Below the pieces are notes generated by a model. It did not search any database, was not told where the DNA came from, and saw only the letters and a list, made by a program, of their open reading frames with translations. From Ramlibacter lithotrophicus (GTDB lineage: Bacteria; Pseudomonadota; Gammaproteobacteria; Burkholderiales; Burkholderiaceae_C), in contig NZ_VTOX01000004.1 in NCBI RefSeq assembly GCF_012184415.1, positions 310,001 through 374,000 of the forward strand: DNA of 64,000 bases. The letters are read 5' to 3'. The stretch's first letter is position 1. Each line of letters starts with the position of its first letter. Below, in pieces: positions 9,217 to 24,716 of the stretch. The position numbers and the translations under genes were made by a program.

Positions 9217-10372
9217 TCCTGGTTCCCGGCTGGATGAAGGTCCGGAAGACGTATTCGGACACGTCGGCGATCTCCTGCGGCGTGAGCACCTTGTCCCACG
9301 CGGGCATCTCGCTGCCGCGGCGGCCGAGGGCGACGCCGTCGTAGATCACGGGGCGGTTCATGCCGGCGCGGGTCTTCGGATCGGTGAATACGGCCGGTTT
9401 CGGGTTGATGAAGTAGGCGCGCGGACCCTGGCCGTCGCCCTTGGCGCCGTGGCACGTGGCGCAGTTGGCGTCGTAGAACTTCTGCCCGGCCACCGGATCG
9501 CCGCGCAAGCCGTTGGCGAACGGCTTCTTCATGTCGATCTTGCCGTCCTTGCCCATGGCATGGTCGCCGCCATGCCCGTGGGCCGCGTGGTCGTTCGGGT
9601 CCCCGTGCCCGCCGTGGTCGCCGTGCTCATGGCCGGAGGCCTTCTTGGAGTCCTTCGCCCCCCGCACGGGTTGGGCATTCGCGACCGGGGCCGCTTCCGC
9701 TTCCTGCACCCGCATGATCGAGACGCGGATGTAGTCGACCACCGCTTCCAGGTCCTCCTGGCTGAAGCGGCGGGCGTAACCCTGCATGGCCGTATTGGGC
9801 CGCCCCTGCGACACCGCGGCCAGCATGCGGTCGCGCGTGAGGTCGTCCTTGGCGCCCTGCGACGTGAAGTCGCGCGGCGCCGGACGCAGGTTGGGGCTGG
9901 CGAACATCGACCCCTTGCCCTGGTCGCCGTGGCAGACCGAGCAGACGCGGGCGTAGATGCGCCGCCCCCGGCTGGCGTCGGTCACGCTGGGCCGCATGTA
10001 CGTGGCGCGGACGTGGTCGACGACGGCCGCGATCTGGGCATCGCTCAACTGCTTCTTCAGGCCGGCCATGGCCGTGCCCGGCACGCCGTTCTTCACCGCG
10101 GCGATCATCCGCTCGCGCGTCAGCTCCTGGGTCGCCTGCGGCGTGGTGAAGTCGCGCGGGGCCGGATTCATGGTCTTGCGCGCCAGGCTGCGCCCGTCGG
10201 CGTCGTCGCCATGGCAGCCGGAGCAATGCGCCTGATAGAGCGCCGCCGGCGTCTGCTGGCCCGCCGGCGGCGGTTTGGCTGCGTGCACCGGCGACGCCAG
10301 CCAGGTGGCGCCCAGCAGCAGCAGGGCGCCCAGCCAGAGGCGGCGGCGCAACGGTCCTGAATCTCTCGACAT
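9197..10372 (-). CDS. Triheme c-type cytochrome with three class I domains and His-rich linker
   Basis: Starting at the ATG at 10372, preceded by GGGAG, the product is 391 residues with a Sec signal ending near SPVHAA. Three class I cytochrome c domains follow in tandem, with heme sites CSGCH, CSVCH and CATCH. The first two share the pattern APRDFT...GTAMAGLKK or NTAMQGYARR with an axial Met. Between domains two and three lies a linker of about 40 residues rich in His, Asp and Gly (for example GHEHGDHGGHGDPNDHAAHG), which looks like a metal-binding stretch. The gene heads the two-gene cytochrome operon and diverges from the NHL gene at 10502. Confidence 0.88.
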   Translation of the reverse strand: MSRDSGPLRRRLWLGALLLLGATWLASPVHAAKPPPAGQQTPAALYQAHCSGCHGDDADGRSLARKTMNPAPRDFTTPQATQELTRERMIAAVKNGVPGTAMAGLKKQLSDAQIAAVVDHVRATYMRPSVTDASRGRRIYARVCSVCHGDQGKGSMFASPNLRPAPRDFTSQGAKDDLTRDRMLAAVSQGRPNTAMQGYARRFSQEDLEAVVDYIRVSIMRVQEAEAAPVANAQPVRGAKDSKKASGHEHGDHGGHGDPNDHAAHGHGGDHAMGKDGKIDMKKPFANGLRGDPVAGQKFYDANCATCHGAKGDGQGPRAYFINPKPAVFTDPKTRAGMNRPVIYDGVALGRRGSEMPAWDKVLTPQEIADVSEYVFRTFIQPGTRNVARNK

Positions 10373-10388
10373 CTCAACTCCCAAGGGC

Positions 10389-10432: not shown

Positions 10433-10435
10433 CGA

Positions 10436-10451: not shown

Positions 10452-10501
10452 TTTTCGAAGCCATCTCGCCGGCCACGGAGGCCGGCTCCGCTCCTGGAGG
10501 C

Positions 10502-11674
10502 ATGTCACTGATGAAGCCCGGATTCTCGAAAGCGCGACTCGCATGCGCAGTCGTGGGAATGGCGGCGGCACTGTTCGCGGCCGGATGCGCGCAGGCGCCG
10601 CAGGTCCAGGCCGCGAAGCCGTTCGTCACGCCGGTGTTTCCGCCGGCGCCGGAGCCGGCCCGCATCGTCTGGGAGCGGTCGCTCCACACCAGTGCCGACG
10701 TGGTCCCGGACGACAGCGACGGCGCGTTGCGCCGGCTGGTCACCGGCGAGCTGCGCACCGGCGAAGGCTTCAACAAGCCCTATGGCGTGGCGGCGCGCAA
10801 CGGCCGCGTGTACGTGGGCGACACCGTGGCGCGCCACGTGGCGCTGTTCGACCTGAACGCCAGGACCTATACCCGCATCGGCGTCGACGAGCCGGGAGCG
10901 CTGCGGATGCCGTTCGGGATGGACCTGGACGACCGCGGCAACCTCTACGTCGTGGACGGAACCCTGAAGCTGATCCACGTCTACGACGGCAAGGGCAAGT
11001 TCCTGCGCAAACTGGGGCAGGACATCGGCTGGAGCCGTCCGGTCGGGCTCGCCATCGATTCCGCGCGCAAGCGGCTGTACGTCGTCGACGTCGGCGGCGT
11101 CGACAGTGCCGAGCACCGGGTGCGCGTGCTGGACCTGGAAAGCGGCAAGCTGCTGTTCGACATCGGCAAGCGCGGCAACGGCCCGGGCGAGCTGAACCTT
11201 CCGCGCGACGCCGCGGTGGGCGGCGACGGGCTGCTGTACGTCGTCGACGGCGGGAATTTCCGCATCCAGGTGTACGACCCCGACGGGAAGTTCATCAAGA
11301 CGTTCGGCGGCATCGGCATCCAGCTGGGCCAGTTTTCGCGTCCCAAGGAGATCGCTTCCGATGCGGCCGGCAACCTGTACGTGGTCGACACGGGCTTCGG
11401 CAACTTCCAGATCTTCGACCGCGAGGGAACGCTGCTGCTGGACGTCGGCGCCCGTGGCGACATGGATGCGCCGGCCAAGTTCTCGCTGCCGTCGGGCATC
11501 GCCGTCGACGTCGACGGGCGCATCTACATGGTCGACCAGTTCTTTCGCAAGGTGGAGGTGTTCCGGCCGGCGTCGCTTCCCGCCGGGAGCCCCTATGGAC
11601 AGGCCGCCTCGGCCGGCGCCAGGCCGCCGCTCGCGGCGACGGGGCAGACCCCGGCCGCGGCGCCGGCCCGTTAG
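10502..11674 (+). CDS. NHL-repeat beta-propeller lipoprotein
   Basis: The 390-residue product has a lipoprotein signal (MAAALFAAGC) and about six NHL repeats, visible as recurring pairs such as LYVVDGTLKLIHVYDGKGKF, LYVVDVGG, LYVVDGGNFRIQVYD, LYVVDTGFGNFQIFD and IYMVDQFFRKVEVF. NHL propellers bind proteins, glycans or other ligands rather than catalyse. Similar lipoproteins accompany extracellular multiheme cytochrome genes in Geobacter, as I recall, which suggests a role in cytochrome secretion or assembly at the outer membrane. The ATG at 10502 follows GGAGG. It has its own sigma-54 promoter. The C-terminal 40 residues are Ala/Pro-rich. Two paralogues are encoded at 20117 and 21118. Confidence 0.85.
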   Translation: MSLMKPGFSKARLACAVVGMAAALFAAGCAQAPQVQAAKPFVTPVFPPAPEPARIVWERSLHTSADVVPDDSDGALRRLVTGELRTGEGFNKPYGVAARNGRVYVGDTVARHVALFDLNARTYTRIGVDEPGALRMPFGMDLDDRGNLYVVDGTLKLIHVYDGKGKFLRKLGQDIGWSRPVGLAIDSARKRLYVVDVGGVDSAEHRVRVLDLESGKLLFDIGKRGNGPGELNLPRDAAVGGDGLLYVVDGGNFRIQVYDPDGKFIKTFGGIGIQLGQFSRPKEIASDAAGNLYVVDTGFGNFQIFDREGTLLLDVGARGDMDAPAKFSLPSGIAVDVDGRIYMVDQFFRKVEVFRPASLPAGSPYGQAASAGARPPLAATGQTPAAAPAR

Positions 11675-11812: not shown

Positions 11813-11828
11813 TGGCACACAAGATGCA
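11813..11828 (+). promoter_or_regulatory. Candidate sigma-54 promoter for tetraheme cytochrome
   Basis: TGGCACACAAGATGCA matches TGGCACG-N4-TTGCA with two mismatches and correct spacing. It lies 63 bases before the ATG at 11891, leaving a leader with the strong ribosome-binding site TAGGAG. Confidence 0.75.
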
Positions 11829-11890: not shown

Positions 11891-12784
11891 ATGAGTTGGA
11901 GCAATTGGATGGGTCGGCAGTCCCTGCGCGAGCGCGGCCTGGCCGTCGTCGTCGCGGGCGTAGTGGTCGCCGTGCTGGGAACGGCCATTAACTGGCCGGC
12001 GTCCGCGCAGTCGACAGGGCTGGCGGCCCGGAAGGGAAGCGGCATCTCCACGACCAAGCACAACCTGGGCTCCAGCGGCACCGGCAACAACACGATTGCG
12101 GCCGGCACCGGGGCCGCGGCCAGTCCTTCCACTGAAATCTGCGTCTTCTGCCATACGCCCCACGCCGCGGAAGTCGCGCGCGGACCGCTGTGGAACCGGC
12201 TCGCCGGAACCGCGACGATCACGCCGTACACCAGCGCCACGCTGACCGGAGGCACGGTCTCGGGCGGCATGGGAACCGCGCTGACCCCCGGTTCCGTGTC
12301 GCTCGCCTGCCTGTCGTGCCACGACGGCACCCAGGCCATGAACACGCTGATCAACGCGCCGGGCTCGAACGGGTACAACGCGGGCGGCGCGGCGTTCGGC
12401 ACGCTCGTGAGCGGCGCCGGCCTGATCACCGGCGTGGCCAAGATCGGCGGCGACCTGACGAACGACCACCCGATCGGGATGAAGTACGCCGGCGGCCGTG
12501 CCGACACCGTGCAGGAGGTCGGCGGCTACGTGCAGTTCACGAAGGGCACCATCAACGCCACGGATGCGTGGTGGGTGGATACCGACACCATCGGCCGCAC
12601 CGGCGCTCCCGCCGCGGACAGCAGCCGGCAGAAGACCGACATGTGGCTCTACGCGCGCACCGGCACCACGGACACGGCGTACGTCGAGTGCGCGAGCTGC
12701 CACGACCCGCATACCGACAACGCGCTGTTCCTGCGCATCCCGAACACCTACAGCTCGGTGTGCCTGTCCTGCCACATCAAGTGA
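11891..12784 (+). CDS. Tetraheme doubled-CXXCH cytochrome, candidate extracellular filament subunit
   Basis: The 297-residue product has a signal peptide ending near ASAQ and four heme sites: CVFCH, CLSCH, CASCH and CLSCH. The first is in the context TKHNLGS...CVFCHTPHAA and the third is CHDPHT, patterns typical of the 'doubled CXXCH' group in which each heme has an extra nearby His for bis-His ligation. The rest is Gly/Thr/Ala/Ser-rich with low sequence complexity, as in extracellular cytochromes such as OmcE and OmcS (4 and 6 hemes). It has its own sigma-54 promoter, a good ribosome-binding site, and a double terminator directly after the stop, so it should be transcribed alone and possibly in large amount. 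Filament formation is inference; a simple surface cytochrome is the alternative. Confidence 0.85.
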   Translation: MSWSNWMGRQSLRERGLAVVVAGVVVAVLGTAINWPASAQSTGLAARKGSGISTTKHNLGSSGTGNNTIAAGTGAAASPSTEICVFCHTPHAAEVARGPLWNRLAGTATITPYTSATLTGGTVSGGMGTALTPGSVSLACLSCHDGTQAMNTLINAPGSNGYNAGGAAFGTLVSGAGLITGVAKIGGDLTNDHPIGMKYAGGRADTVQEVGGYVQFTKGTINATDAWWVDTDTIGRTGAPAADSSRQKTDMWLYARTGTTDTAYVECASCHDPHTDNALFLRIPNTYSSVCLSCHIK

Positions 12785-12793
12785 GGTGAACGC

Positions 12794-12875: not shown

Positions 12876-13946
12876 ATGACGAAAGATCAACACGGCCGGC
12901 CGGCAAAGGCGCGTGCGCGCCGGCATCTCGCGTGCTGGCTGCTCGCAGCGGCCTGCGTGTCCGCGCACGCCGCCCCCGACCCTGCCACGGGCGGCGCGGC
13001 CGCCCCGGCGGCCGGGGCGCAACAGGTTTTCGCCCGGGTGGGCGAGGTGGTGGTCACCCGCGAGCAGTTCGAGGCGGCCTTCGTCCAGGCCGCCCGCGGC
13101 AAGTTCTATCACGGCAAGGCGCCCGACGGCGCCGTCGCCGCGCTGCAGCGCGAAGTCGGCCAGGGCATCGTCGACGACATCCTGATCGCCGCCGAAGCGC
13201 AGCGGCGCGGGATCGCACCCGACCACGAGAGCGTCAAGCGCACCCTCGATTCGTACGACGAACGCTATCGAGGCAATGCGCAGTGGGGCGCCAACCGCGA
13301 ACGGATCCTGCCGGCGCTCAAGGCCAGGCTGGAGCGCGACAGCATCCTCGAGGCCTTCCGCAAGGAGGTCAGGACGGTCGGCGACCCGACCGAGGCCGAA
13401 CTGGTCGCCTACTGGGAGGCCCACCAGGACAAGTTCACCGCGCCGGAGCAGGTGAAGCTGTCGGTGATCCTGCTGGGCGTCGTGCCGTCCTCGCCGCAGG
13501 CAAAGTGGGACGAGGCTCGGGCCGAGGGCGCCGCGATGCTGCAGCGCCTGCGCGAAGGCGCCGACTTCCAGGAGCTGGCGCGCCAGCATTCCAGCGACTC
13601 GTCGGCCGCCAATGGCGGCGACATGGGCTACCAGCACAAGGGCATGCTTCCCGAGCCGGCCCAGCTGGCGCTCGACAAGCTGGAACCCGGCGCAGTGAGC
13701 GAACCCGTCGTGCTGCTCGAAGGCGTGGCGATATTCCGGCTCGACGAGCGCAGGCCGGCCCGGCTCAATCCGCTGGACGTCGTCAGGACCCGCGCGCGCG
13801 ACCTCTGGAAACGCGACAAGGGCGAGGAGGCGTGGACGCAGTTGCTCGCGCGGCTGCGCAGCGAGACGCCCGCCACGATCGACGATTCCGGTTTCCTGCC
13901 CCTGACGACCAGCGCCACCGCGGACGAGAAGGCCGCACCGCGCTGA
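12876..13946 (+). CDS. Periplasmic parvulin-type peptidyl-prolyl isomerase
   Basis: The 356-residue product starts at the ATG at 12876 after AAGGGAG. It has a signal peptide (HLACWLLAAACVSAHAAP), a SurA-like N-terminal helical region (about 50-200) and a PpiC/parvulin domain (about 205-305) with the typical QHSSDSSAANGGDMGYQHKGMLP segment in its C-terminal half and PGAVSEPVV near its end. Parvulins of this layout act in the periplasm as folding helpers for outer-membrane or secreted proteins. Prolyl isomerases recur beside genes for filament-forming extracellular cytochromes, so its likely clients are the tetraheme and 11-heme cytochromes or the adjacent barrel. The C-terminal 30 residues are unstructured. 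Confidence 0.9.
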   Translation: MTKDQHGRPAKARARRHLACWLLAAACVSAHAAPDPATGGAAAPAAGAQQVFARVGEVVVTREQFEAAFVQAARGKFYHGKAPDGAVAALQREVGQGIVDDILIAAEAQRRGIAPDHESVKRTLDSYDERYRGNAQWGANRERILPALKARLERDSILEAFRKEVRTVGDPTEAELVAYWEAHQDKFTAPEQVKLSVILLGVVPSSPQAKWDEARAEGAAMLQRLREGADFQELARQHSSDSSAANGGDMGYQHKGMLPEPAQLALDKLEPGAVSEPVVLLEGVAIFRLDERRPARLNPLDVVRTRARDLWKRDKGEEAWTQLLARLRSETPATIDDSGFLPLTTSATADEKAAPR

Positions 13947-13965: not shown

Positions 13966-15876
13966 ATGAAGTACCCGCGGCAGCCACTGCGCGCGCTGCT
14001 GGCCGGGCTGATCGCCTTCGGTGGCGCGACGACGCAGGCCGCCCAGCCATCCGGCGGGCGCGCCGAGTCCGAAGGCGCCGCGGCCGCCGAGCCGCCCGCG
14101 TCGGGCCTGGCCGCCCTCGGCCTGAACCTCACCCGGGCGCCGATCGTCACGGCCGGCACTGTTTCCTATGACCTGCGGGCGAGCCAGGCCACCGGCGAAA
14201 GCCGGACCGTGGCGCACCTGGTTACCGGCACGCTGCTCGCCAACACCTATATCTACCAGCCCTGGTTCGCGACGGCGACCGGCAGCCTGGGTTTCACGGC
14301 CGGTCTTGCCACCGAGAGCGCGAATCCCGACGGCTCGGCCGGGCCGTTCGCCGAGGCGCCGCGGGCGGCGACACGCGACCGGTTCGTGACCGGACTGGCG
14401 CGCGTGAAGGTCTTTCCGCAAAGCCGCTTTCCCTTCGAATTCCACGTCGAGCGCAGCGACAGCCGGGTCGATACCGCGGCGCCGACCTCGCTGGACTTCC
14501 GCACCCAGAACATCGGCTTCTCGCAACGCTACCGCCCCGCCTCCAATGGCTACACGCTGGCGGCGAGCTTCGACCGGCGCGACCAATGGGCCCGCGGCGT
14601 GCGGGATACCCAGCATGCGCTGACGGGGGACTTCGGAACGTACTGGAAATACCACGACCTCACCCTCGGCGCAGCCTGGAACGAGACCCGCCGGCGCATG
14701 AGCGACGAGCGGTCCGAATTTCGATCGCTGCTGGCGCGCCACAACTACGCGCCGAGCGCCGCCGGCTCGCTGAACACCACCGTGAACTGGTCGCAGTCCC
14801 TCGAGAACAGGATCACGGTTCCCTCGGATCTCACCGTGCTGCAATGGTCCACCGTCGGCCTGCTGCGCCGCGACAATTCGCCGCTGCTGCTGACCGGTGC
14901 GGTCCGCGGCCTGGCACTGCGCGACGGCGAGGGCGACCGCGACCTGGACAGCCTGGGGCTCACGCTGGGCGCCACGTACGAGCTGTCCCACAACGCGCGC
15001 CTGTCCGCCAGCGGCAGCGCCAACAGCACCAGGAGCAACGGTGGCGCCGCCACCGGCCTCGCGGGCGCCTTCGCGGCGAACTGGCAGGGCGACACGATCG
15101 AATTCAAGGGCCTGCGCTACGACTGGTTCGCCAGCACGACGGCCGCGGTCTCCATGAACGACGACGGGGCCGCGCGCGAGCCCGCCGACGCGGGCAACGC
15201 GGTCCAGAGCACCGCGGGCCTGCAGGTCGGCCACGGCGTGTCGCGCACGTTCCAGCTCACGAGCCAGTCCGGGCTGCTGCTGAACGCGGGCCAGACGTTC
15301 TCGATCCAGGCGGGCGACGGCCAGGCCGGGCCGAAGGGCGCCGACCGGAGCGTGCAGCACAACGCCTCGGCCGCCTGGAACGTCGCCGCCGACGGCCGGA
15401 CCGGCTATGCGCGGCTCTCGTACAACGACTTCACCGACCTCGGCGGCGGCCCCGCCCGTTTTCAGCTCTGGAATTTCCAGCTTTCCGGAAACTTCGCCAT
15501 CAACCGCTACCAGACCGTCGGCGGAGACTTCACGTGGCAGCGCACCGACCAGCGCATCGGCGTCGACGCGGCGCTGCCGGCGGGCGCGCAACGCGTGCTG
15601 TCCAGGGGCGCGAGCGGCGAACTCGCGTACCGGCACCAGCGGCTCTTCGGCTTTCAGCGCCTGCGCTTTTCCTCGCGGATCAAGCTGGCCCAGGATGTGC
15701 TGCACCAGCCAGGGATGCTGTCCGCCATTCCCGATCGTGAGACCCGTGCGTGGGAGAACCGCCTCGACTGGTCCATCGGCCGGCTGGAGTCCCAGCTCAT
15801 CGTCCGCCTCTCGGAAGTGGACGGGCGGCGACGGGATTTCCTGATGTGGCGGATCCAGCGCAGTTTCGGGAATTGA
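13966..15876 (+). CDS. Predicted outer-membrane beta-barrel, candidate cytochrome porin
   Basis: The 636-residue product has a signal peptide (LLAGLIAFGGATTQAA), no cysteine that I can find, and long alternating polar/hydrophobic strands with aromatic girdle residues from about residue 65 to the end. The C-terminus reads RIQRSFGN, close to the barrel-ending aromatic motif. About 20 or more strands would fit. I do not recognise a named family by motif. Size, position between a parvulin and multiheme cytochromes, and lack of other barrels in the cluster make it the natural candidate for the outer-membrane sleeve or secretion pore, analogous to MtrB/PioB or Geobacter OmbB. It lacks the N-terminal CxxC of Shewanella MtrB. 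Start ATG at 13966, 19 bases after the isomerase stop. Confidence 0.7.
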   Translation: MKYPRQPLRALLAGLIAFGGATTQAAQPSGGRAESEGAAAAEPPASGLAALGLNLTRAPIVTAGTVSYDLRASQATGESRTVAHLVTGTLLANTYIYQPWFATATGSLGFTAGLATESANPDGSAGPFAEAPRAATRDRFVTGLARVKVFPQSRFPFEFHVERSDSRVDTAAPTSLDFRTQNIGFSQRYRPASNGYTLAASFDRRDQWARGVRDTQHALTGDFGTYWKYHDLTLGAAWNETRRRMSDERSEFRSLLARHNYAPSAAGSLNTTVNWSQSLENRITVPSDLTVLQWSTVGLLRRDNSPLLLTGAVRGLALRDGEGDRDLDSLGLTLGATYELSHNARLSASGSANSTRSNGGAATGLAGAFAANWQGDTIEFKGLRYDWFASTTAAVSMNDDGAAREPADAGNAVQSTAGLQVGHGVSRTFQLTSQSGLLLNAGQTFSIQAGDGQAGPKGADRSVQHNASAAWNVAADGRTGYARLSYNDFTDLGGGPARFQLWNFQLSGNFAINRYQTVGGDFTWQRTDQRIGVDAALPAGAQRVLSRGASGELAYRHQRLFGFQRLRFSSRIKLAQDVLHQPGMLSAIPDRETRAWENRLDWSIGRLESQLIVRLSEVDGRRRDFLMWRIQRSFGN

Positions 15877-15909
15877 AGCGGCGCGTGTTGCGCAAGGAAG
15901 AGGAGCTTG

Positions 15910-16353
15910 ATGATGTTCGAAACGACGGGCGCGCGGCCGTGGCGCCACCGGTGGCGGCTGCTGCTGGCGCTGTTGGCGGCGGTGGCTGCGCTGGCGGGGC
16001 TGTCGCCCGACGCCCGGGCCGAATACGGCGACGTGGTGATCAACAACTACTCGGACGCGTCCGGCATGCGCCCGGTCGTGTTCCCGCACTGGTTCCACCG
16101 GATCCGCTATCGCTGCAAGGTCTGCCACGCCGACCTCGGATTCAAGTTCAAGGCCGGCGGCAACGAGATCAACATGGTCAAGGTGATCGACGGCCAGTTC
16201 TGCGGCGCCTGCCACAACGGCGACGTGGCCTGGAGCATCGAGAACTGCAACATGTGCCACTCCGGCAAGCCGAACACGCCGACCCAGGTGCACGAGAGCA
16301 CGATCAACTCGCTGGTCATCCCGGGCGGGGCCCAGAAGGAGAAGCGGCCATGA
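15910..16353 (+). CDS. Periplasmic triheme c7-type cytochrome (copy A1)
   Basis: The product of about 147 residues has a signal peptide ending near PDARAE and a triheme domain with CKVCH, CGACH and CNMCH. Conserved His upstream of each site (FPHWFHRIRYRCKVCH) provides bis-His ligands, as in cytochromes c7 and c3. AGGAG is four bases before the ATG at 15910 and seven before the one at 15913, so either may be used; a TTG at 15907 is unlikely. The stop overlaps the next gene's start (ATGA). A paralogue with nearly the same core (GMRPVVFPHWFHRIR.RCKVCH) is encoded at 19749. It should carry electrons across the periplasm. Confidence 0.9.
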   Translation: MMFETTGARPWRHRWRLLLALLAAVAALAGLSPDARAEYGDVVINNYSDASGMRPVVFPHWFHRIRYRCKVCHADLGFKFKAGGNEINMVKVIDGQFCGACHNGDVAWSIENCNMCHSGKPNTPTQVHESTINSLVIPGGAQKEKRP

Positions 16354-17324
16354 GGCGCGGCACCTGGATGGTGGCCGCCATGCTGGCGGTTTCGACCTGG
16401 ATCGCGGCGCCCGACGCCGCCGCCCAGGACCCGGCCGGCAAGGCGGTCTACGAATCGGCCTGCGTCGCCTGCCACGGCACCGGCGTGCTTGGCGCGCCGA
16501 AGCTGGGGGACGCGGCGGCCTGGAAGGCCAGGGCCGGGGGCAGTCTCTCCGCCCTCGTGGCCAGCGCGAAAGCGGGCAAGGGCGCCATGCCGGCCAAGGG
16601 CGGCAACGCGGCGCTGACCGATGCCCAGCTGGCCGCCGCCATTGCCTACATGATGGGCGACGCGGCGGCGAAGGCGCCGGCGGCGGCGCCCGCGGCTGCC
16701 AAGGCGGCGGGGCCGGCGGCCGCGCCCGCCACGCCGGCCCAGGCGGCCACTGCCCCGGCACCGGCCGCCACGCCGAGGCCGGTTGCCGTGGCACCCTCGA
16801 ACGTCAACTCGTTCAACCGGCTGCTGCGGGCCCCCAGCCAGCGCAATCGGCCGCCGGCGGAGGATGGAATCCACGACGCGACGAACGACGGCACGCTGGC
16901 CCTGCAGCCGCCGCTCGCGTCGTTCCAGGAACTGCCGCGCAGCAACGCGGGCAACCGGGTGGACTGGGTCAAGTCGATGCGCGAGAACAAGATCGCTCCG
17001 CGCGCCGATCGCCTCGACGACAAGGTCCAGCCGATGGTCATGGACCTGAACATCGTGCGCGAAGTGAAGGGCTCGATGCCCGACGTGGTGTATCCGCACA
17101 AGCAGCACACCGAGTGGCTCGACTGCTCCAACTGCCACCCGGCGATCTTCAAGCCGCAGAAAGGCGCCAACCAGATCAGCATGGCAAGCATCCTGCTCGG
17201 CGAAGCGTGCGGCGTCTGCCACGGCAAGGTGGCGTTCCCGGTCTCCGAGTGCCGCCTGTGCCATTCCAAGGCCAAGCCCGTGGCGGCGACCGCCGGCGCC
17301 GCCCCGGCCGAGGCGGCGAAATAG
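16350..17324 (+). CDS. Fusion of cytochrome c5 and triheme c7-type domain (four hemes)
   Basis: The 324-residue product joins two electron carriers. After a signal peptide (ending DAAAQD) comes a c5 domain with CVACH and an axial Met in GAMPAKGGN, highly similar to the separate c5 at 7660. An Ala/Pro-rich linker of about 55 residues follows. The C-terminal domain has CSNCH, CGVCH and CRLCH with the ligand pattern VYPHKQHTEWLDCSNCH. The C-terminal domain plus its lead-in (EDGIHDATNDG, NAGNRVDWVKSM) is paralogous to the whole protein encoded at 19144. The linker suggests a tether that lets the c5 domain dock with a partner. Start ATG at 16350 overlaps the preceding stop. Confidence 0.9.
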   Translation: MRRGTWMVAAMLAVSTWIAAPDAAAQDPAGKAVYESACVACHGTGVLGAPKLGDAAAWKARAGGSLSALVASAKAGKGAMPAKGGNAALTDAQLAAAIAYMMGDAAAKAPAAAPAAAKAAGPAAAPATPAQAATAPAPAATPRPVAVAPSNVNSFNRLLRAPSQRNRPPAEDGIHDATNDGTLALQPPLASFQELPRSNAGNRVDWVKSMRENKIAPRADRLDDKVQPMVMDLNIVREVKGSMPDVVYPHKQHTEWLDCSNCHPAIFKPQKGANQISMASILLGEACGVCHGKVAFPVSECRLCHSKAKPVAATAGAAPAEAAK

Positions 17325-17349: not shown

Positions 17350-18261
17350 ATGAGCAATGTGACTGCCTGGTGGACCAAGGCCGCGCTGGTCCTCACGCTC
17401 GCGCAGCTGGCGCAGGACGGCCTCGCGCAGCCGGGCGCGCCGGTCCGCCGGAGCGTGTCGCTCCAGACCATCGAGCAGAAGATCTCGATGCTCGAAAAGC
17501 TCCTGGGCCAGTCCTCGGTCGCGGCGCGGGTGCTGGCCAGCGGCAGCGAGCAGGCGCAGCGGCACCTGGGCGCCGCGCGCGAGCTGGCCGTGCGTGCCCG
17601 CTCCCTGTCCGCGGTGGGCGAACTGCCGCGCGCCGACGCCCTGCTCAACGAGGCCATCTGGGAGATCGGCCGCGCGCAGCAGCTGGTGCCGGATTCGGGC
17701 GTGCGCCGGGTGGCCGACCGGGCTCGCTACATGCAGCTGGAGGACAGCGTGGCCGCGCTGCGCCGCACGTCCGAGATCGGCCAGCCCGCGGCCGGGCCGG
17801 GCGCCGAACCCCTCGCCGGGGTCGTCGCGCAGGCGGACGTCCACGTGCAGCGGGCCGTCGGCCTGGCGGCGGCGGAGCGTTACTCCGAAGCCAACCAGGA
17901 ACTCGACCTGGCACTCATGCTCCTGATGAAGGAAGCATCGTCGCGGCTGGCCGGCCAGACCCTCGTCTACGGCACCCGCTTCGCGAACCGCCGCGAGGAA
18001 TTCGATCATGAGCTCGAGCGCCACCGCAGCTTCGAGCGGCTGGTGCCGCTCGCGCTCGCGGAGCTCAGGCCCGCGCCTGAGGCGGTCGCCGTGGTCCAGC
18101 GCCACGTGGCGCGAGCCCGCGAACTGCGCGAGCGCGGCGAGGCCGTGGCCGGCCGCGATCTCGCCGCGGCGATCGGGCATGTCGTCGATGGCACTTACGC
18201 GCTGCGCAGCGCGCTCCAGGCGAGCGGCCTGGTGGTGCCGCAAACCATGGGGGGCCAGTGA
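17350..18261 (+). CDS. Helical periplasmic protein of unknown function (copy 1)
   Basis: The 303-residue product has an N-terminal hydrophobic stretch that reads as a signal peptide (KAALVLTLAQLAQDGLAQ). The remainder is almost entirely amphipathic helix, rich in Ala, Arg, Glu and Leu, with heptad-like stretches. A segment FANRREEFDHELERHRSFERLVPLA near residue 215 aligns with FTSKAEEYEYEIDRNETHRMLVDML of the next gene, showing that the two are paralogues. No heme, metal or catalytic motif is seen. Location between two pairs of triheme cytochromes and one-base overlap with its paralogue suggest a scaffold or adapter for the cytochrome complex. I recognise no family. Confidence 0.75.
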   Translation: MSNVTAWWTKAALVLTLAQLAQDGLAQPGAPVRRSVSLQTIEQKISMLEKLLGQSSVAARVLASGSEQAQRHLGAARELAVRARSLSAVGELPRADALLNEAIWEIGRAQQLVPDSGVRRVADRARYMQLEDSVAALRRTSEIGQPAAGPGAEPLAGVVAQADVHVQRAVGLAAAERYSEANQELDLALMLLMKEASSRLAGQTLVYGTRFANRREEFDHELERHRSFERLVPLALAELRPAPEAVAVVQRHVARARELRERGEAVAGRDLAAAIGHVVDGTYALRSALQASGLVVPQTMGGQ

Positions 18262-19142
18262 TGGCACGCCTGCTTGACCTGTACCTGCGCGGCGCCTTCG
18301 TGGCGCTCGCCCTCTATGCGGCGGTCGCGAGCGCGGCCCAGACCCTGCCGCCGGACCGCAGCCAGCTGGAACGCAAGCTGACCTCGACCCGCACGCTGAT
18401 CGAAACCTCGTCCGGCGCCAGACAGATCGAGGCCAGCGGCGACGCCGCGGCCGTCGCCGACCGGGCGCGCGCGCGCGAACTGCACGCGCGGGCCGGCGAT
18501 GCCCTGCGCAGCGAGGAGCTGGAGAGCGCCAGCAAGCTGCTGGACGAGGCGTCCCGCGCCATGTTCGCCGCCGTGCGCAAGGCCGCCGCCGAGCAGGTCT
18601 CCGGCCGCAAGGAGCGCGCCGACTTCGAAGCGCGGATGCTTTCGACGCGGGCCCTGCTGGAGGCGCAACGGCGCGTCGCCGCGGAGAAGAATTCGGGCCA
18701 GTCGGCGCGCGACGTCTCCAGCCGGGTCGAGAAGCTGCTGGCCGAGGCGGGCGAACAGGCCCGCAGCGGGATGATGGGCGCGGCGCGCCGCACCCTGGAC
18801 CAGGCCTACATGGCGGTGAAGATCTCGGCCATCGGCCTGCGCGATGGCGACACCGTGGTGCGGTCGCTCAATTTCACCAGCAAGGCCGAGGAATACGAGT
18901 ACGAGATCGATCGCAACGAGACCCACCGGATGCTGGTCGACATGCTGCTGAAGGAAAAGCGCGGCACGGCCAGTGTCGGCGCGATGGTCGACCAGGCGCT
19001 CGCGGCGGCCGCGACCCTGCGTTCCCAGGCGGAGGCCGAGGCCGCGCGCCGCGACCATGACACGGCGGTCAAGACGCTGGAGCAGTCGACGCGCGAACTG
19101 GTCAAGGCGATCCGCGGCGCGGGCGTCTACATCCCGGGCTAG
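18261..19142 (+). CDS. Helical periplasmic protein of unknown function (copy 2)
   Basis: The 293-residue product begins at ATG 18261, overlapping the preceding stop by one base (TGATG). It has a signal peptide (FVALALYAAVASAAQ) and a long helical body with coiled-coil tendency, for example residues 40-170, rich in Ala/Arg/Glu. It is paralogous to the product at 17350, most clearly around EEYEYEIDRNETHRMLVDML. It ends YIPG. No cofactor motif is present. Two such proteins in tandem point to a heterodimer or a pair of related scaffolds. Function unknown; a role in organising periplasmic cytochromes is inferred from position only. Confidence 0.75.
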   Translation: MARLLDLYLRGAFVALALYAAVASAAQTLPPDRSQLERKLTSTRTLIETSSGARQIEASGDAAAVADRARARELHARAGDALRSEELESASKLLDEASRAMFAAVRKAAAEQVSGRKERADFEARMLSTRALLEAQRRVAAEKNSGQSARDVSSRVEKLLAEAGEQARSGMMGAARRTLDQAYMAVKISAIGLRDGDTVVRSLNFTSKAEEYEYEIDRNETHRMLVDMLLKEKRGTASVGAMVDQALAAAATLRSQAEAEAARRDHDTAVKTLEQSTRELVKAIRGAGVYIPG

Positions 19143-19143
19143 C

Positions 19144-19752
19144 ATGGCTGCGCGGCACGGCGGATCCGGCGGGCGGGCGGCCGCGATGGCAGGCAGGCTC
19201 CGACTGGGGCTGCTCCTGCTTCTCGCCTTCGTCTCGGCGCTGGCCGTGGCGTCGGGGCCGAAGTGGCGCGCGATCGCCAATGACGGGGTGCATGACCCGG
19301 CCAGTCCGGCCATCGGCCTGCTGCAGGAGCCGCGCGAAGCACTGGGCGGGCTGGCGCCCGACACCGCGGGCAACCAGGTGCGCTGGATGCAGGCGCTCGA
19401 CCAGGGCCAGATCCAGCCGCGCACCAACATCCATCCGGAGACGAAGGTCAACCTGCGCACCACGGACGTCCTGCTGGTGAACACCAGTGTCCAGCCCATC
19501 GTGAGGTTTCCGCATCGGCAGCACACCGCCTGGCTCGATTGCGTGAACTGCCACGACCATCTGTTCGAGCAGAAGGCCGGGGCCACGCGCATCGGCATGA
19601 TGGCCATCCTGATGGGGGAAAAGTGCGGCGTCTGCCACGGGGCGGTCGCCTTTCCGCTCACGGAGTGCAATCGCTGCCACAGCGTCGTGCGTGGCAGCCC
19701 CGAGCACCTGCGGTTCGGCACGTCGCTGGTGCGGGAATCGACCGCGCCATGA
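19144..19752 (+). CDS. Triheme c7-type cytochrome (copy B2)
   Basis: The product is 202 residues from ATG 19144; an internal ATG at 19186 gives a tidier signal peptide and is a reasonable alternative. Heme sites are CVNCH, CGVCH and CNRCH, with ligand His in RFPHRQHTAWLDCVNCH. It matches the C-terminal 185 residues of the fusion at 16350, including NDGVHDPASP and the segment GMMAILMGEKCGVCHGAVAFPLTECNRCHS in altered form, but lacks the c5 domain. The stop overlaps the next start by four bases (ATGA). It is presumably a periplasmic relay. Confidence 0.9.
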   Translation: MAARHGGSGGRAAAMAGRLRLGLLLLLAFVSALAVASGPKWRAIANDGVHDPASPAIGLLQEPREALGGLAPDTAGNQVRWMQALDQGQIQPRTNIHPETKVNLRTTDVLLVNTSVQPIVRFPHRQHTAWLDCVNCHDHLFEQKAGATRIGMMAILMGEKCGVCHGAVAFPLTECNRCHSVVRGSPEHLRFGTSLVRESTAP

Positions 19753-20123
19753 AGCTGCGGGCCGCCCTGTCGTTCCTGCTGCTGTGGCTCGCCCTGGCCG
19801 TGCCGGCACAGGGGGAGTACGCCGACGTGGTGCTGAACCGGCTGTCGGAGCAGTCCGGGATGCGGCCGGTCGTCTTCCCGCACTGGTTTCACCGGATCCG
19901 CTTTCGCTGCAAGGTCTGCCACGGCGAGCTTGGTTTCAAGATGCGCGCCGGAGCCAACGTCGTGCAGATGAACGACATCATCAACGGCAAGTTCTGCGGC
20001 ATGTGCCACAACGGGCGGGTGGCGTGGTCCGCCGACCGGTGCGACCTGTGCCATTCAGGCAGGCGGGGCCTGCCCAGCGGGATCTACGGCGGCAGCGAAA
20101 CAGGAGGGCCAGGCCGATGGTGA
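19749..20123 (+). CDS. Triheme c7-type cytochrome (copy A2)
   Basis: The 124-residue product has a signal peptide (LLLWLALAVPAQGE) and heme sites CKVCH, CGMCH and CDLCH. It is the paralogue of the product at 15910, sharing the PHWFHRIR.RCKVCH segment and the C-terminal C.LCHSG motif. The gene order here (B then A) is reversed relative to 15910-17324 (A then B). It overlaps the next gene by seven bases. A small periplasmic electron carrier is the likely role. Confidence 0.9.
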   Translation: MKLRAALSFLLLWLALAVPAQGEYADVVLNRLSEQSGMRPVVFPHWFHRIRFRCKVCHGELGFKMRAGANVVQMNDIINGKFCGMCHNGRVAWSADRCDLCHSGRRGLPSGIYGGSETGGPGRW

Positions 20124-21121
20124 AACCCCAGGTGCGTCGGCGGGCCTTCACGTTCGGGGCGGCGGCCGCCGCGTTCGGGCTGGGCGGCTGCGCCGGAACC
20201 CAGGACGACGCGGCGCGGCCGCGCGCCGCAAACGGCGGCGGGGTGCTGACGCCGTGGCTGGCCATCGACGGCGGCTGGCGCGCCGACCCGCGGCAGCCGC
20301 TCCAGATCGTGCCGGTGCCGGGCGCCCGGCTCAGGTTCGTGCAACCGGTGGGCGTGGCCGCGCTCGGCGACCTGCTGCTGGTCGCCGACGCGGGGGCGCG
20401 CATGGTGTGGCGCATCGACCGCGGCCGGGACGCCATGGCCCCGTTCGCCCCGTTCACCGGCGGCAGCCCGGGACACGCCGCCTCGCTGCACGTCGCCAAC
20501 GACATGAGCGTCTGGGTCGCGCTGCCGGCCGAGCACCAGGTGGTGCAGTACGACCCGCGCGGCCGGGTGGTCCGCCGCTTCCTCGACGACGCCAACGCAC
20601 CGAGGCCGGTGGCGGTCGCGGTGCCGGACAGCCGCGCCGAAGTGTTCGTGGGCGATGGCGCTGCCGCGCAGGTGGCGGTGTTCGATCCGCTCGGACGCAC
20701 CGTCGGCCTCCTCGGCGGAGGTCGCCATCCCGTCTTGCAGAGCATCGCGGCGATGGCGCTGGGACCGGACGGCCTCTATGTGCTGGACCCGCTCGCGCAG
20801 CAGGTCGTCGTGCTGGGGCGCGGTGGCGAAGTGGTCGCGGTCATCGGGGAAAACCAGTTGCTGCGCCCGCGCGCGCTGGCGGTCGACCGCAGCGGCCGGG
20901 TGTTTGTCAGCGACGACGCCGACCAGCGCATCAAGGTGTTCCGCGGGGCCGACATGGTGGCCGCCGTCGGCGGTGCCGGCGGGGGCCCGGGACGCTTCGG
21001 GCGGATCGAGGCGCTGGCCGTGGACGGCAACATGCTCTACGTGGCAGACAGCGTCAATGCGCGGGTGCAGGTGATGCTGGTCGCACCGCCATCCCTGGAG
21101 CGCCGGGGAGCGCGGTCGTGA
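20117..21121 (+). CDS. NHL-repeat propeller lipoprotein with Tat-like signal
   Basis: The 334-residue product starts VKPQ after the ATG at 20117 and has a signal with RRRAFTFG followed by a hydrophobic stretch and GGC, reading as a twin-arginine-type lipoprotein signal. NHL-like blades follow: LLVADAGARMVWRID, VFVGDGAAAQVAVFD, LYVLDPLAQQVVVLG, VFVSDDADQRIKVF and LYVADSVNARVQVM. It overlaps the next propeller gene by four bases (GTGA). Like its paralogues at 10502 and 21118 it probably serves assembly or export of the surface cytochromes rather than electron transfer, since it has no heme motif. Confidence 0.85.
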   Translation: MVKPQVRRRAFTFGAAAAAFGLGGCAGTQDDAARPRAANGGGVLTPWLAIDGGWRADPRQPLQIVPVPGARLRFVQPVGVAALGDLLLVADAGARMVWRIDRGRDAMAPFAPFTGGSPGHAASLHVANDMSVWVALPAEHQVVQYDPRGRVVRRFLDDANAPRPVAVAVPDSRAEVFVGDGAAAQVAVFDPLGRTVGLLGGGRHPVLQSIAAMALGPDGLYVLDPLAQQVVVLGRGGEVVAVIGENQLLRPRALAVDRSGRVFVSDDADQRIKVFRGADMVAAVGGAGGGPGRFGRIEALAVDGNMLYVADSVNARVQVMLVAPPSLERRGARS

Positions 21122-22188
21122 AGCGACCGGGCGGGTGGGTGCTGGCGGCGGCCATCGCCGCCGGGCTCGCGGGCTGTGCCAGCGAACCGCTGGTGATGCG
21201 GCTGGAGGGAACCGCGGCCGAGTTGTCCCGGGTCTTCCCGCCACCGGAGACCCAGGAGGTGCCGCGCTACCGGTATCTCGGCCAGCTGGTGGGAGAGTCC
21301 AACTTCCGGCCGGTCGACGGCGAGCGGCGCGGCACCGCGCGCAAGCTGCTGGCGTGGGTGGTCGGACTGGACGAAGCGCAGGAGCAGCCGCTGGTGCTGC
21401 AGCGCCCGCAAAGCGGCGTCGTGGACGCGGCCGGCCGGGTCCTCGTCACCGACGTGAGCCGCAACGCCGTGTTCGTGTTCGACGAGGCGGGCGGCCGCCT
21501 GGATCTGTGGGAACACGCCACCAGGGCGGAACGGTTCGCCGCGCCGATCGGCATCGCGCTGGGCCGCGATGGCGAATTGGTGGTGGCGGATGCGGAGCTG
21601 GGACGGGTCTTCCGGCTGGGGCCCGACGGCAAGCCGCACGGCGAGTTCGGCGCCGGCGTCCTGCAGCGGCCCGCCGGCGTGGCGACCGATCCGAAAACCG
21701 GCCGCGTGTTCGTTGCCGACACCCACGCCCACGACATCAAGGTCTTCGACGGCGATGGCCGGCTGCTGCAGACGTGGGGCCGACGCGGCGAGCAGCAGGG
21801 CGAGCTCAACTTCCCGACCCACCTGACTTTTGTCAACGGAATGCTGATGGTCGTGGATACGATGAACGCGAGGGTGCAGGGCTTCGATACGGAGGGCCGG
21901 CCCGCGCTCACGCTCGGCCAGCGCGGCCGGTACGTGGGGAACCTGGTCCGGCCCAAGGGAGTGGCGGCCGACGACGAGGGCAACCTCTACGTGGTGGAAT
22001 CGATGTACGACACCCTGCTGGTTTTCGACCGCAAGGGACAGCTGCTGATGCACCTGGGCGGCAACGGCTCCGATGCCGGCCGCTTCTACCTGCCCGCGGG
22101 CGTCTGGGTCGATTCGCGCAATCGCGTGTTCGTCGCCGACATGTTCAACGGGCGCGTCGCCATCTTCCAGTTCCTCGGGGGCAACTGA
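21118..22188 (+). CDS. NHL-repeat propeller lipoprotein
   Basis: The 356-residue product begins at GTG 21118 and has a lipoprotein signal (IAAGLAGC). It carries six NHL blades, visible as VLVTDVSRNAVFVFD, LVVADAELGRVFRL, VFVADTHAHDIKVFD, LMVVDTMNARVQGFD, LYVVESMYDTLLVFD and VFVADMFNGRVAIFQF. This is the most canonical of the three propellers. Its stop overlaps the start of the 11-heme cytochrome by one base, so the two are translationally coupled, which favours a direct partnership with that cytochrome. Confidence 0.88.
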   Translation: MKRPGGWVLAAAIAAGLAGCASEPLVMRLEGTAAELSRVFPPPETQEVPRYRYLGQLVGESNFRPVDGERRGTARKLLAWVVGLDEAQEQPLVLQRPQSGVVDAAGRVLVTDVSRNAVFVFDEAGGRLDLWEHATRAERFAAPIGIALGRDGELVVADAELGRVFRLGPDGKPHGEFGAGVLQRPAGVATDPKTGRVFVADTHAHDIKVFDGDGRLLQTWGRRGEQQGELNFPTHLTFVNGMLMVVDTMNARVQGFDTEGRPALTLGQRGRYVGNLVRPKGVAADDEGNLYVVESMYDTLLVFDRKGQLLMHLGGNGSDAGRFYLPAGVWVDSRNRVFVADMFNGRVAIFQFLGGN

Positions 22189-24716
22189 TGGTCCGTGTCG
22201 TGCCCTGGCTGCTCGCGGCGCTGCTGGTGCTGGTCGCCGCGCTCGCGGCCACGGAACCCGCCGGCGCGGCGAAGGTCTCCGACGTGCGCGGCACCAAGCA
22301 CAACCTGTCGGCCGCCGGGCCCGGAACGGTGAAGGCGCCGACCGGCGGGGAGTCGCAGATCTGCGTCTTCTGCCATACGCCGCACGCCGCCGAGACGATC
22401 CCGAACGCCCCGCTGTGGAACCGCAAGCTGTCGGCCGCCACGTACACGACCTACACCTCCAGCTCGATCGAGGCCAGCGCGGCCGAACTGGCGGCGGGCC
22501 CGGGCGGGAGTTCCAAGCTGTGCCTGTCGTGCCACGACGGAACGATGGCGATCGGCAGCGTGAACGTCCTCAATGGGCTGGGGGGCGCGTCGGTTCCGCT
22601 GACCGGCACGGCCACCGGGGGCCTGATGCCGACGACCGGCGCCACCACCGGGTTCACCCGCAACCTGGGCGTGAACCTGAGCAACGATCACCCGATCTCG
22701 TTCACGTACAGCTCGACCCTCGCAACGAACGACGGCGAGTTGCGGCCGCCCGATGGCACCCTTGTGGGCACGCGATCGCCCGGCGTCAAGCCGACGCTGC
22801 CCCTGGAAGACGGCAAGGTCCAGTGCACCACCTGCCACGACCCGCACCTGCGCGAGACCGACACGGCCAAGGGGCCGGCGAAGTTCCTGCGCCTGAACCG
22901 CTTCCAGGAGCTGGCGCCCGCCGGCGGGGCGTTCTCCGAGGCGAACGACATCATCTGCCTGGCCTGCCACGACAAGGGCGGGCAGCTCTGGGCCCTGTCC
23001 GCCCATGCCCACCCGTCGGTGGCCAACGAGCTGTACACGACGGACGCGGCGAACCGCCGGGAATTTCCGACGACCGCGCCCGGCATGCCGGTGTGGAAGG
23101 CCGCCTGCCTCAACTGCCACGACACGCACACGGTGCAAGGTGCGCGGCGCCTGTTGCGCGAGGGCACGGACAGCACCAGCTCGCCGAAGGCGGGCGGCGG
23201 CTCCGCCATCGAGGAAACGTGCTACCAGTGCCACTCGGGCCTGACCGACACGCTGACCAGCGTGGCGTCGGTTCCCAACATCAGGGACGAGTTCACGCGG
23301 ACCTACCGCATGCCGATCAGCACGGCCGACCAGACCTTCAACGGGAACACCGCGGAGCGGCACGACATCGGCGCGGGGCCGGGCACCGGCAAGGACTTCG
23401 TCGAGTCCACGGCCGTCCTGGCGAACCGCCACGTCGAGTGCACCGACTGCCACAACCCGCACCGGGTGACGAAGAAGCAGCGTTTCAATGCGGACCCCGC
23501 GACGGCGGACGCTTCGGGCACGCACAACCACGCTGCCGGCCATACCAATATCGCCTCGGGTGTCCTGCGCGGCATGTCGGGAGTGGAGCCGACCAAATGG
23601 GCGGGCGTGCAGTTCGGCAACGTGGCTTCCGAGTTCGCCGTCAAGAGCGGAGACGGCGGCAACAGCGCCGACACGAATCCGGCGGCCAGCAGCGCCTGGC
23701 TCACGCGCGAGTACCAGGTGTGCCTGAAGTGCCATTCGAGCTATGCCTATGGCAACACGCCGCCCGACCTGGGAAGCAGCGGAGGCGGCACCACCAGCGG
23801 CACCAACGGCGTCACGCGCTACACCGACCAGGCCATGGAGTTCCAGGCGCCGTCCGGGCACCGCGCGCGGCCGGCCACCACCAGCGACAGCGGTGCGGCG
23901 GCCGGCTGGTCGGGCAACAACCACCGCAGCTGGCATCCGGTGATCGGTTCCACCGGCCGCACCCACGCGCTGCGCGGCACCAGCACCAGTTCCTGGCGTG
24001 CGCCATGGAACGCCGATGCCGACGTCGGCAGCCAGACCATGTACTGCTCGGACTGCCACGGGACCAATACCGCCGCCGATTCGGTGGTGGGCAGTCCGGC
24101 CGGTCCCCACGGGTCGGCCAACCCCTTCATCCTGAAGGGGCAGTGGAGCCAAACGACCGGAACCGGGTCGCGCGAAGGCGGGCAGACGGCCAATGCCCTG
24201 TGCTTCAAGTGCCACAACCCGGGTACCTACCTGAACGGGGTCGCCGGCGGCGGCAGCACCGGCTTCAACGGTGGCGGCAAGGGCAACCTCCACAAGTACC
24301 ACAACGACAAGATCGAGAGGCTGCGCTGCACCTGGTGCCACGTCGCCGTCCCGCACGGCTGGAAGAACCGTTCGTTGCTGGTCAACCTCAACGACGTCGG
24401 GCCCGAGGTCAAGTGCCGCCAGGAGGATGCCGACGACCTGCCGACCGGCTCCAAGTGCACCGTCGGCCAGCCGATGCCGGTTGGCACCCAGATGCGCAAC
24501 GGCTCTTCCGGCAGCGGCGCGACCAGTACCACCGACTGGAACAACCGCGGCTACACGAACGGGCCCTATTACCTCAACGCCATGCTGAAGATCCGCAGCT
24601 TTCCCAGCGGCAGCTGGTCCGAGGGCAACTGCGGCTCCTCCGGTGCTCCGGGCAACGGCTCGAGCGGGCGCAGCTGGATGCGCGACTCGAACGAGAGCTG
24701 CGAGGCCGCGCCATGA
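22188..24716 (+). CDS. 11-heme doubled-CXXCH cytochrome, predicted surface protein
   Basis: The 842-residue product has a signal peptide (ending PAGAAK) and eleven CXXCH sites in this order: CVFCH, CLSCH, CTTCH, CLACH, CLNCH, CYQCH, CTDCH, CLKCH, CSDCH, CFKCH, CTWCH. Several are followed by extra His (CHTPHA, CHDPHL, CHDTHT, CHNPHR), as in doubled-CXXCH proteins. The N-terminus (RGTKHNLSAAGPGTVKA...CVFCHTPHAAE) is closely related to that of the tetraheme protein at 11891. The C-terminal 120 residues hold no heme but four more cysteines and Gly/Ser-rich stretches. It likely acts at or beyond the outer membrane. Start ATG 22188; the stop overlaps the ResB gene. Confidence 0.9.
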   Translation: MVRVVPWLLAALLVLVAALAATEPAGAAKVSDVRGTKHNLSAAGPGTVKAPTGGESQICVFCHTPHAAETIPNAPLWNRKLSAATYTTYTSSSIEASAAELAAGPGGSSKLCLSCHDGTMAIGSVNVLNGLGGASVPLTGTATGGLMPTTGATTGFTRNLGVNLSNDHPISFTYSSTLATNDGELRPPDGTLVGTRSPGVKPTLPLEDGKVQCTTCHDPHLRETDTAKGPAKFLRLNRFQELAPAGGAFSEANDIICLACHDKGGQLWALSAHAHPSVANELYTTDAANRREFPTTAPGMPVWKAACLNCHDTHTVQGARRLLREGTDSTSSPKAGGGSAIEETCYQCHSGLTDTLTSVASVPNIRDEFTRTYRMPISTADQTFNGNTAERHDIGAGPGTGKDFVESTAVLANRHVECTDCHNPHRVTKKQRFNADPATADASGTHNHAAGHTNIASGVLRGMSGVEPTKWAGVQFGNVASEFAVKSGDGGNSADTNPAASSAWLTREYQVCLKCHSSYAYGNTPPDLGSSGGGTTSGTNGVTRYTDQAMEFQAPSGHRARPATTSDSGAAAGWSGNNHRSWHPVIGSTGRTHALRGTSTSSWRAPWNADADVGSQTMYCSDCHGTNTAADSVVGSPAGPHGSANPFILKGQWSQTTGTGSREGGQTANALCFKCHNPGTYLNGVAGGGSTGFNGGGKGNLHKYHNDKIERLRCTWCHVAVPHGWKNRSLLVNLNDVGPEVKCRQEDADDLPTGSKCTVGQPMPVGTQMRNGSSGSGATSTTDWNNRGYTNGPYYLNAMLKIRSFPSGSWSEGNCGSSGAPGNGSSGRSWMRDSNESCEAAP

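Follow-up and report, generated by a model that had tools for sequence, protein, structure and literature searches.

A Uet-type electron-transfer cluster of Ramlibacter lithotrophicus encodes a homologue of the filament cytochrome OmcE

The undecaheme electron transfer (Uet) pathway was described in Tenderiales as a set of a tetraheme cytochrome UetA, an isomerase UetB, a porin UetC, the triheme cytochromes UetD, UetE and UetG, the NHL proteins UetH and UetI and the 11-heme cytochrome UetJ, and it was also reported for Gallionella (PMC10734462). In Candidatus Tenderia at a cathode, three triheme genes that lie near the undecaheme gene by locus tag were among the most highly expressed, and a TPR gene was seemingly cotranscribed with them (PMC5371394); from the order of the tags in the excerpts consulted, the triheme genes would be UetD, E and G and the TPR gene (Tel_16525) would be UetF. 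Within the Leptothrix-Sphaerotilus genomes, UetJ and its porin were reported for group 2 by a 2026 paper (PMC13386937). The filament cytochrome OmcE has a rise of 34 Å (PMC12954529), and its heme 2 is ligated by a histidine from the neighbouring subunit (PMC12203936). Here we describe a Uet-type cluster in a stretch of 64,000 nucleotides (the window) from the betaproteobacterium Ramlibacter lithotrophicus, namely positions 310,001-374,000 of contig NZ_VTOX01000004.1 in assembly GCF_012184415.1 (genome size 5.26 Mb), and we compare its cytochromes with OmcE.

The Leptothrix-Sphaerotilus group belongs to the Burkholderiales, as does Ramlibacter, and Uet is therefore already in print for this order. 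Judged by its predicted products, the Ramlibacter locus is a complete Uet-type cluster that matches the published pathway part for part in gene set and order, the likeness having been set from published descriptions of the pathway and not gene by gene against the Tenderia sequences. Both have the tetraheme A, the isomerase B, the barrel C, trihemes, NHL propellers and the 11-heme J. In the excerpts of the Uet description three trihemes are named, whereas the Ramlibacter locus has four c7 domains, one extra; and besides two NHL genes before uetJ, in the place of UetH and UetI, it has one extra NHL lipoprotein gene before uetA. Read directly from the window, the gene order is NHL1, tetraheme, parvulin, barrel, c7, monoheme-c7 fusion, two proteins that read as helical, c7, c7, NHL2, NHL3 and 11-heme, and ResB-like and CcsA-like genes stand directly 3′ of the 11-heme gene. 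A preliminary description of this DNA, which had also recognised the betaproteobacterial host, had listed a tetraheme and an 11-heme cytochrome, three NHL lipoproteins, a parvulin, a barrel, four c7 domains and two unknown helical proteins within 10372-24716; the content stands in full and does read as a periplasm-to-surface conduit, whereas both limits have to be moved, since 10372 lies inside a divergent minus-strand gene (9197-10441) and the conserved cluster runs to 26517. The genes of the cluster are given below, with counts over 51 loci, window included, each of which has at least 9 kb upstream and at least 2 kb downstream of UetJ; gene labels in these loci come from profiles and were not individually checked.

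10502..11674, plus strand: NHL1, NHL-propeller lipoprotein (PF01436 2e-21, lipobox AAGC)
11891..12784, plus strand: UetA, tetraheme cytochrome of the OmcE family, predicted filament subunit (4 CXXCH, match to OmcE 7tfs)
12876..13946, plus strand: UetB, parvulin-type peptidyl-prolyl isomerase (PF00639 4.4e-15)
13966..15876, plus strand: UetC, outer-membrane beta-barrel (modelled with AlphaFold2, see below)
15907..16353, plus strand: UetD, triheme c7 cytochrome (3 CXXCH, PF14522 7.3e-15)
16350..17324, plus strand: UetE, N-terminal monoheme cytochrome c and C-terminal triheme c7 (4 CXXCH, PF13442 1.2e-15, TIGR04257 3.5e-17)
17350..18261, plus strand: protein 1 of unknown family between the c7 pairs, reads as helical (label in 39 of the 51 loci)
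18258..19142, plus strand: protein 2 of unknown family between the c7 pairs, reads as helical (label in 47 of the 51 loci)
19186..19752, plus strand: triheme c7 cytochrome, paralogue of the c7 part of UetE (3 CXXCH, PF14522 1.2e-10)
19749..20123, plus strand: triheme c7 cytochrome, paralogue of UetD (3 CXXCH, TIGR04257 2.4e-18)
20117..21121, plus strand: NHL2, NHL-propeller lipoprotein (PF01436 2.8e-11, lipobox LGGC)
21118..22188, plus strand: NHL3, NHL-propeller lipoprotein (PF01436 2.3e-25, lipobox LAGC; label in 49 of the 51 loci)
22188..24716, plus strand: UetJ, 11-heme cytochrome with an OmcE-like tetraheme module (about residues 37-263) and a heptaheme region (11 CXXCH)
24713..25681, plus strand: ResB-like cytochrome c assembly protein, System II (PF05140 7.8e-5, 22.1 bits, below the cut-off of 24.6)
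25678..26517, plus strand: CcsA-like cytochrome c assembly protein, System II (PF01578 2.2e-20)

UetA, whose start is likely the ATG at 11891, matched among PDB sequences OmcE (7tfs, E 3.7e-24) and 9yuq (E 2.1e-21), a 16-chain ‘putative multiheme cytochrome c’, and the next match had an E-value of 2.2. With a profile of 31 UetA-type sequences these values became 1e-37 and 2.2e-37, the next best being 0.028, and the match to OmcE fell into two stretches that cover both ends of the mature chain. Moreover, it extends to the non-heme motifs PLWN, DHP and FLR and to the C-terminal CxxCHxK, which is present in all 31 aligned sequences. By sequence, UetA is thus a true homologue of OmcE, and the kinship with OmcE-type filament cytochromes that had been proposed for the tetraheme is borne out. 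Each aligned sequence has four CXXCH, which was a selection rule, and four histidines outside these motifs are invariant (H18, H52, H154 and H235 in the mature numbering of the window protein); these candidate ligands all align with OmcE histidines, H18 and H52 sitting in motifs used for row selection and H154 and H235 outside them. Since the UetA and UetJ rows were chosen by the motif C[VI][FY]CHTPH and the number of CXXCH, the conservation of that motif is by construction; the UetA alignment omits rows cut by the locus end (L060, L066, L076, L088 and L112), rows that do not have four CXXCH, and L029-L034. Both OmcE and 9yuq are homologous to UetA as well as to the first module of UetJ, with the CXXCH and four further histidines aligned, but UetA is longer than OmcE between the third distal histidine and the third heme, and UetJ carries seven additional hemes. 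In the literature searched, Uet or UetA was not described as an OmcE-type filament; the original Uet paper and a nanowire survey lay outside that search, and absence from print is not claimed. The UetA of the window is itself divergent: it falls outside the other Ramlibacter UetA in the tree and is 40-46% identical to them over the best segments, compared with 59-64% for UetJ (73% in the fragmentary L033).

The same kind of evidence applies to the start of UetJ. The sequence KHNL...CVFCHTPHA, which had been pointed out as common to the tetraheme and the 11-heme protein, is found in both, and residues 13-220 of UetJ match OmcE 7tfs with an E-value of 5.1e-23, the fourth heme motif of the module following at residue 257. 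Eleven CXXCH were counted in all 83 aligned UetJ, window included (L033, with a broken frame, was omitted). The four OmcE-type histidines are kept in 82, 83, 83 and 83 of these sequences, the single miss being a sequence that starts at a contig end and the second histidine lying in the selection motif. In a tree of 80 modules, for which every second UetJ was used, the UetA and UetJ modules split with support 99/96, under a long-branch warning that makes the placement of the second-cluster tetraheme described below especially unsure. Hence uetA and the module of uetJ look, on sequence grounds, like old paralogues that have been kept side by side. In addition, residues 212-350 of UetJ match the MtrC/MtrF domain II/IV model above its cut-off; with the C-terminal part, nothing convincing was found among PDB sequences (best E 0.023). 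Because seven hemes are joined in UetJ to the module that it shares with UetA, UetJ is likely the base or the tip of a stack, and its sequence suggests a place at the start or the end of a UetA filament.

The barrel UetC was modelled by AlphaFold2 with a predicted local distance difference test (pLDDT) score of 90 and a predicted template modelling score of 0.73; the confident model has 28 long strands by our own count, low confidence in the first 28 residues and no plug domain. MtrB had the best Foldseek TM-score (0.44) among the 50 matches listed, and it was also first in VIA-align (6r2q_B, Z 19.0, root-mean-square deviation 12.3 over 395). By sequence, the window protein had no Pfam or NCBIfam match, the Pfam matches of 50 relatives were to six families, each matched by one member, and a UetC profile against PDB sequences gave a best E-value of 0.0047 over 70 positions, which is not convincing. 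The model thus supports a large open barrel and indicates no specific family. The c7 genes form two paralogous pairs, UetD with 19749-20123 (58% over 96 residues) and UetE with 19186-19752 (42% over 144). The two proteins between these pairs are paralogous too (29% identity, E 4e-12); they have no Pfam match above cut-off, and the word ‘helical’ stands for an impression from their sequences rather than for a secondary-structure prediction. NHL3 matched many NHL and other propellers in the PDB, with no lead on function. NHL2 has, before its lipobox, an RRRAFTFG stretch (window 20117-20200) that resembles a twin-arginine signal, unlike NHL1 and NHL3.

We consider it probable that these genes make a complete Uet-type outer-membrane conduit in which UetA most likely stacks head to tail, with UetJ likely at the base or tip of the stack and the propellers and UetB likely as helpers. 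The periplasmic c7 cytochromes would carry electrons between the inner-membrane chain and the UetC barrel, and the surface cytochromes, UetJ and then the UetA filament, would carry them on, in either direction. Each UetA subunit would lend a histidine to one heme of its neighbour, the NHL lipoproteins and UetB would likely serve as folding or assembly helpers, and the ResB/CcsA-like proteins would attach heme. The location of the proteins, the order of transfer, the polymerisation of UetA and the end-piece role of UetJ are what we infer from gene content and homology. By analogy with other hosts, namely the cathode-grown Tenderia and the iron-oxidising Gallionella, the cluster is more likely to serve the uptake of electrons from Fe(II), Mn(II) or a solid donor. 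A bolder and more tentative possibility is that Uet is a self-contained nanowire machine, with UetA as an OmcE-type subunit and UetJ as a dedicated end piece whose heptaheme head sits on the barrel or caps the tip.

Relatives of UetJ are encoded in 437 contig stretches, and among the best 80, which were used here, the cluster occurs in Ramlibacter strains and in contigs from Magnetococcales and from alpha-, beta- and gammaproteobacteria; over UetJ, homology to the window extends to Gallionella and Gallionellaceae contigs (L050 and L093). A homology search for the ordered gene set had been proposed in the preliminary description, and the same order does recur in dozens of contigs from several proteobacterial lineages, which argues that the grouping is not due to chance. 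In the 51 loci, UetB was labelled in 45, UetC in 46, four c7-type genes in 43, an NHL gene in 49 and UetA in 41; because UetA lies near the 10-kb flank limit some of its genes are cut off, and the label in L077 is doubtful, as a motif-based search found no such tetraheme there. Homologues of ResB and CcsA accompany UetJ in 49 and 44 of the 51 loci, and thus are part of the cluster in most of them; they go unmentioned in the excerpts of the Uet descriptions consulted (PMC10734462, PMC13386937). An open reading frame labelled NHL1 was found in 11 of the 51 loci, the others ending before that position, and NHL1 is probably its own unit before uetA. At E < 1e-140, UetJ was present in 6 of 37 genomes of the genus (in pieces in G014), and at E 1e-50 it was present in 11 of 300 Burkholderiales genomes that were at least 90% complete, representing 10 of 140 genera, and in 17 of 397 genomes drawn across the phylum; all these counts include the studied genome. 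The composition had been thought unusual for Burkholderiales: it is uncommon there, but it is a further case of the known Uet pathway and so not new to the order. Two full-scale UetJ copies were seen in G081, in tandem on contig C97 (6710-8968 and 9383-11641), and on separate contigs in G173 (C28 and C60) and G449 (C166 and C359). Loci L038, L041 and L055 duplicate L029, L031 and L032 and were omitted from locus, sequence and promoter counts, though they were kept as rows of a second alignment, from which L070 was omitted for its length.

The genome has two further multiheme cytochrome loci. A second, shorter Uet-like cluster lies ∼75-85 kb upstream of the window start (L035, G000:C4:226000-243000, 496-13364) and holds genes for an NtrC-type regulator, a 9-CXXCH protein, an OmcE-like tetraheme, two NHL lipoproteins, a 7-CXXCH frame, a putative barrel of 685 residues (by reading) and a 602-residue protein with 11 CXXCH and one CX3-4CH. 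No c7 or isomerase gene was seen in it, the isomerase not having been sought with a family model, and its barrel showed no significant BLASTP match to UetC (E 0.07). Since both clusters share tetraheme, NHL, barrel and 11-heme genes, these are suggested as the core machine. For the 11-heme protein of the second cluster, close relatives were found in 2 of the 37 genomes of the genus (its own and G032), and its matches in G008 and G016 are their UetJ. Another mix of the same parts is seen in G032 (L024, 1468-3565), where an OmcE-like tetraheme gene is directly followed by two triheme c7-type genes. The other locus, on contig C5 (L036 and L121, G000:C5:158000-184000), is of mtr type, with a DmsE-type decaheme, two OmcA/MtrC-type decahemes and a putative barrel, near further multiheme genes and an apparent ccm operon (by reading). 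For R. lithotrophicus RBP-2, mtrCAB was reported beside ccmA-I, and System II genes were placed elsewhere, adjacent to other cytochromes (PMC8805035); and, as far as the excerpts of that report go, this is the arrangement in the genome studied here.

The Uet locus shares with MtrCAB a barrel and periplasmic and surface multiheme cytochromes, and MtrB is the best structural neighbour of UetC, but tied with FhuA. With the PCC3 conduit of iron oxidisers it shares a porin and multiheme cytochromes, but its periplasmic parts are small triheme proteins. No MtrA/DmsE decaheme was found among the ten cluster proteins scanned, which gave sub-threshold matches to TIGR03508 only (UetJ 35 bits, cut-off 192), and besides UetJ the window has no frame with 10 or more CXXCH. 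For PCC3, a periplasmic cytochrome of ∼21 or more hemes was looked for, and no frame of the window exceeds 11 CXXCH. Heme counts and model scores thus reject both MtrCAB and PCC3 as the family of the locus.

Several observations weigh against the conduit with a stacked UetA that we favour. Within the aligned part, OmcE carries one or more extra histidines, at a place where UetA has none, and four distal histidines would also be enough for a UetA monomer to ligate every heme by itself. The AlphaFold2 model of UetA from 31 sequences was unusable (pLDDT 41). As a structural match of UetC, FhuA (Z 18.5), a TonB-dependent receptor, comes within Z 1 of MtrB, so that the two are tied, and other TonB-dependent receptors come next. 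In excerpts of the Tenderia account a TPR gene stands among the trihemes, whereas Ramlibacter has there the two paralogous proteins, neither with a match to TPR. Among the cluster proteins scanned with family models no quinol oxidoreductase gene was recognised. Finally, UetJ is the sole recognised Uet gene in 2 of the 51 loci (L087 and L103), and likewise in L065, L099, L108, L113 and L115, which have less flank.

Some of these points fit a conduit of the same Uet parts in which UetA does not polymerise and acts as a small surface or released tetraheme that passes electrons to UetJ on the barrel, as in filament-free Mtr-type conduits. OmcE homology alone is no proof of polymerisation, the histidines of UetA are enough for a self-contained bis-histidine tetraheme, and the excerpts of the Uet description speak of UetA as an extracellular tetraheme, with no mention of a filament (PMC10734462). 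Nevertheless, the OmcE match covers the ligand positions and all the non-heme motifs given above, and UetJ holds a second copy of the module, which would be explicable by a stacking role, so that we hold a non-polymerising UetA to be somewhat unlikely. It is likewise conceivable, though in our view unlikely, that UetC is mainly a secretion or assembly pore for UetA and UetJ, helped by the NHL proteins and UetB, and that electrons cross through the assembled cytochromes with no fixed plug. The barrel, the isomerase and the propellers travel together, and the second cluster groups its putative barrel with genes for a tetraheme, an 11-heme protein and two NHL proteins, without a c7 or isomerase gene seen, so that by its gene content the barrel seems to track the surface cytochromes. 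However, four c7-type genes are kept in most Uet loci (43 of 51), which indicates an electron path up to the barrel, and the nearest shape to UetC is MtrB, though tied. That the cytochromes are periplasmic only, and store or shuttle electrons there, seems highly improbable to us: signal peptides alone place proteins merely beyond the inner membrane, but a 28-strand barrel gene stands in the middle of the cluster, UetA and UetJ resemble the extracellular OmcE, and part of UetJ matches the MtrC/MtrF domain model. The barrel gene and the OmcE homology are the reasons for setting this explanation so low.

A possible control of the cluster is suggested by three features around it.

11813..11828, plus strand: sigma-54-type -24/-12 site before uetA (TGGCAC-N5-TTGCW, 1 mismatch)
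28668..30002, plus strand: sensor histidine kinase, possible regulator of the cluster (PF02518 7.1e-25)
30275..31684, plus strand: NtrC-type response regulator, possible activator at the sigma-54-type site (read from the translation)

The sigma-54-type site ends 63 bp upstream of the likely uetA start. Across the whole window the pattern had 5 matches against 1.92 expected, with 4 of 100 shuffles as high, which is weak alone; the site gains weight because it recurs before uetA. A TGGCAC-N5-TTGC site with at most one mismatch precedes uetA in 17 of 28 other rows (five of the 17 are Ramlibacter, and 11 rows have no site at one mismatch), compared with 100 of 2000 random 450-bp windows of the loci, some upstream stretches being shorter than these controls, which are mostly coding DNA. 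Of 46 other loci, 20 have a homologue (E 1e-10) of the histidine kinase and 19 have one of the NtrC-type regulator in the 10 kb downstream of UetJ, and regulation of the cluster by these two proteins is possible. Between the CcsA-like gene and the two-component genes lies a gene for a CcmC-like protein (PF01578, window 27374-28129), with downstream homologues in 4 of 46 loci only. On the minus strand, at window 8041-10441, two divergent genes encode cytochromes with class-I type domains (PF13442); the first has 4 CXXCH and a lipobox-like LSGC, the second has 3 CXXCH, and both are possible partners of the cluster.

The cluster bears on the question of how a cytochrome nanowire is anchored on the cell and what forms its end. 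If UetJ does act as the proposed end piece, we would know of no earlier case of a cytochrome nanowire with a genetically encoded terminus. To the known Uet pathway we add the OmcE homology, the UetJ fusion, the 28-strand barrel model, the linkage of ResB and CcsA, the sigma-54-type site, and the second cluster and Mtr locus of the same genome. The homology of UetA and UetJ to OmcE makes the surface part of Uet a concrete and testable filament hypothesis, and the presumed wire subunit and its fused version, usually encoded with the barrel, the assembly helpers and the heme-attachment genes, form a small testable system. If UetA polymerises, wire-based electron exchange would reach many Proteobacteria beyond the Geobacter-type metal reducers, including bacteria linked to electron uptake.

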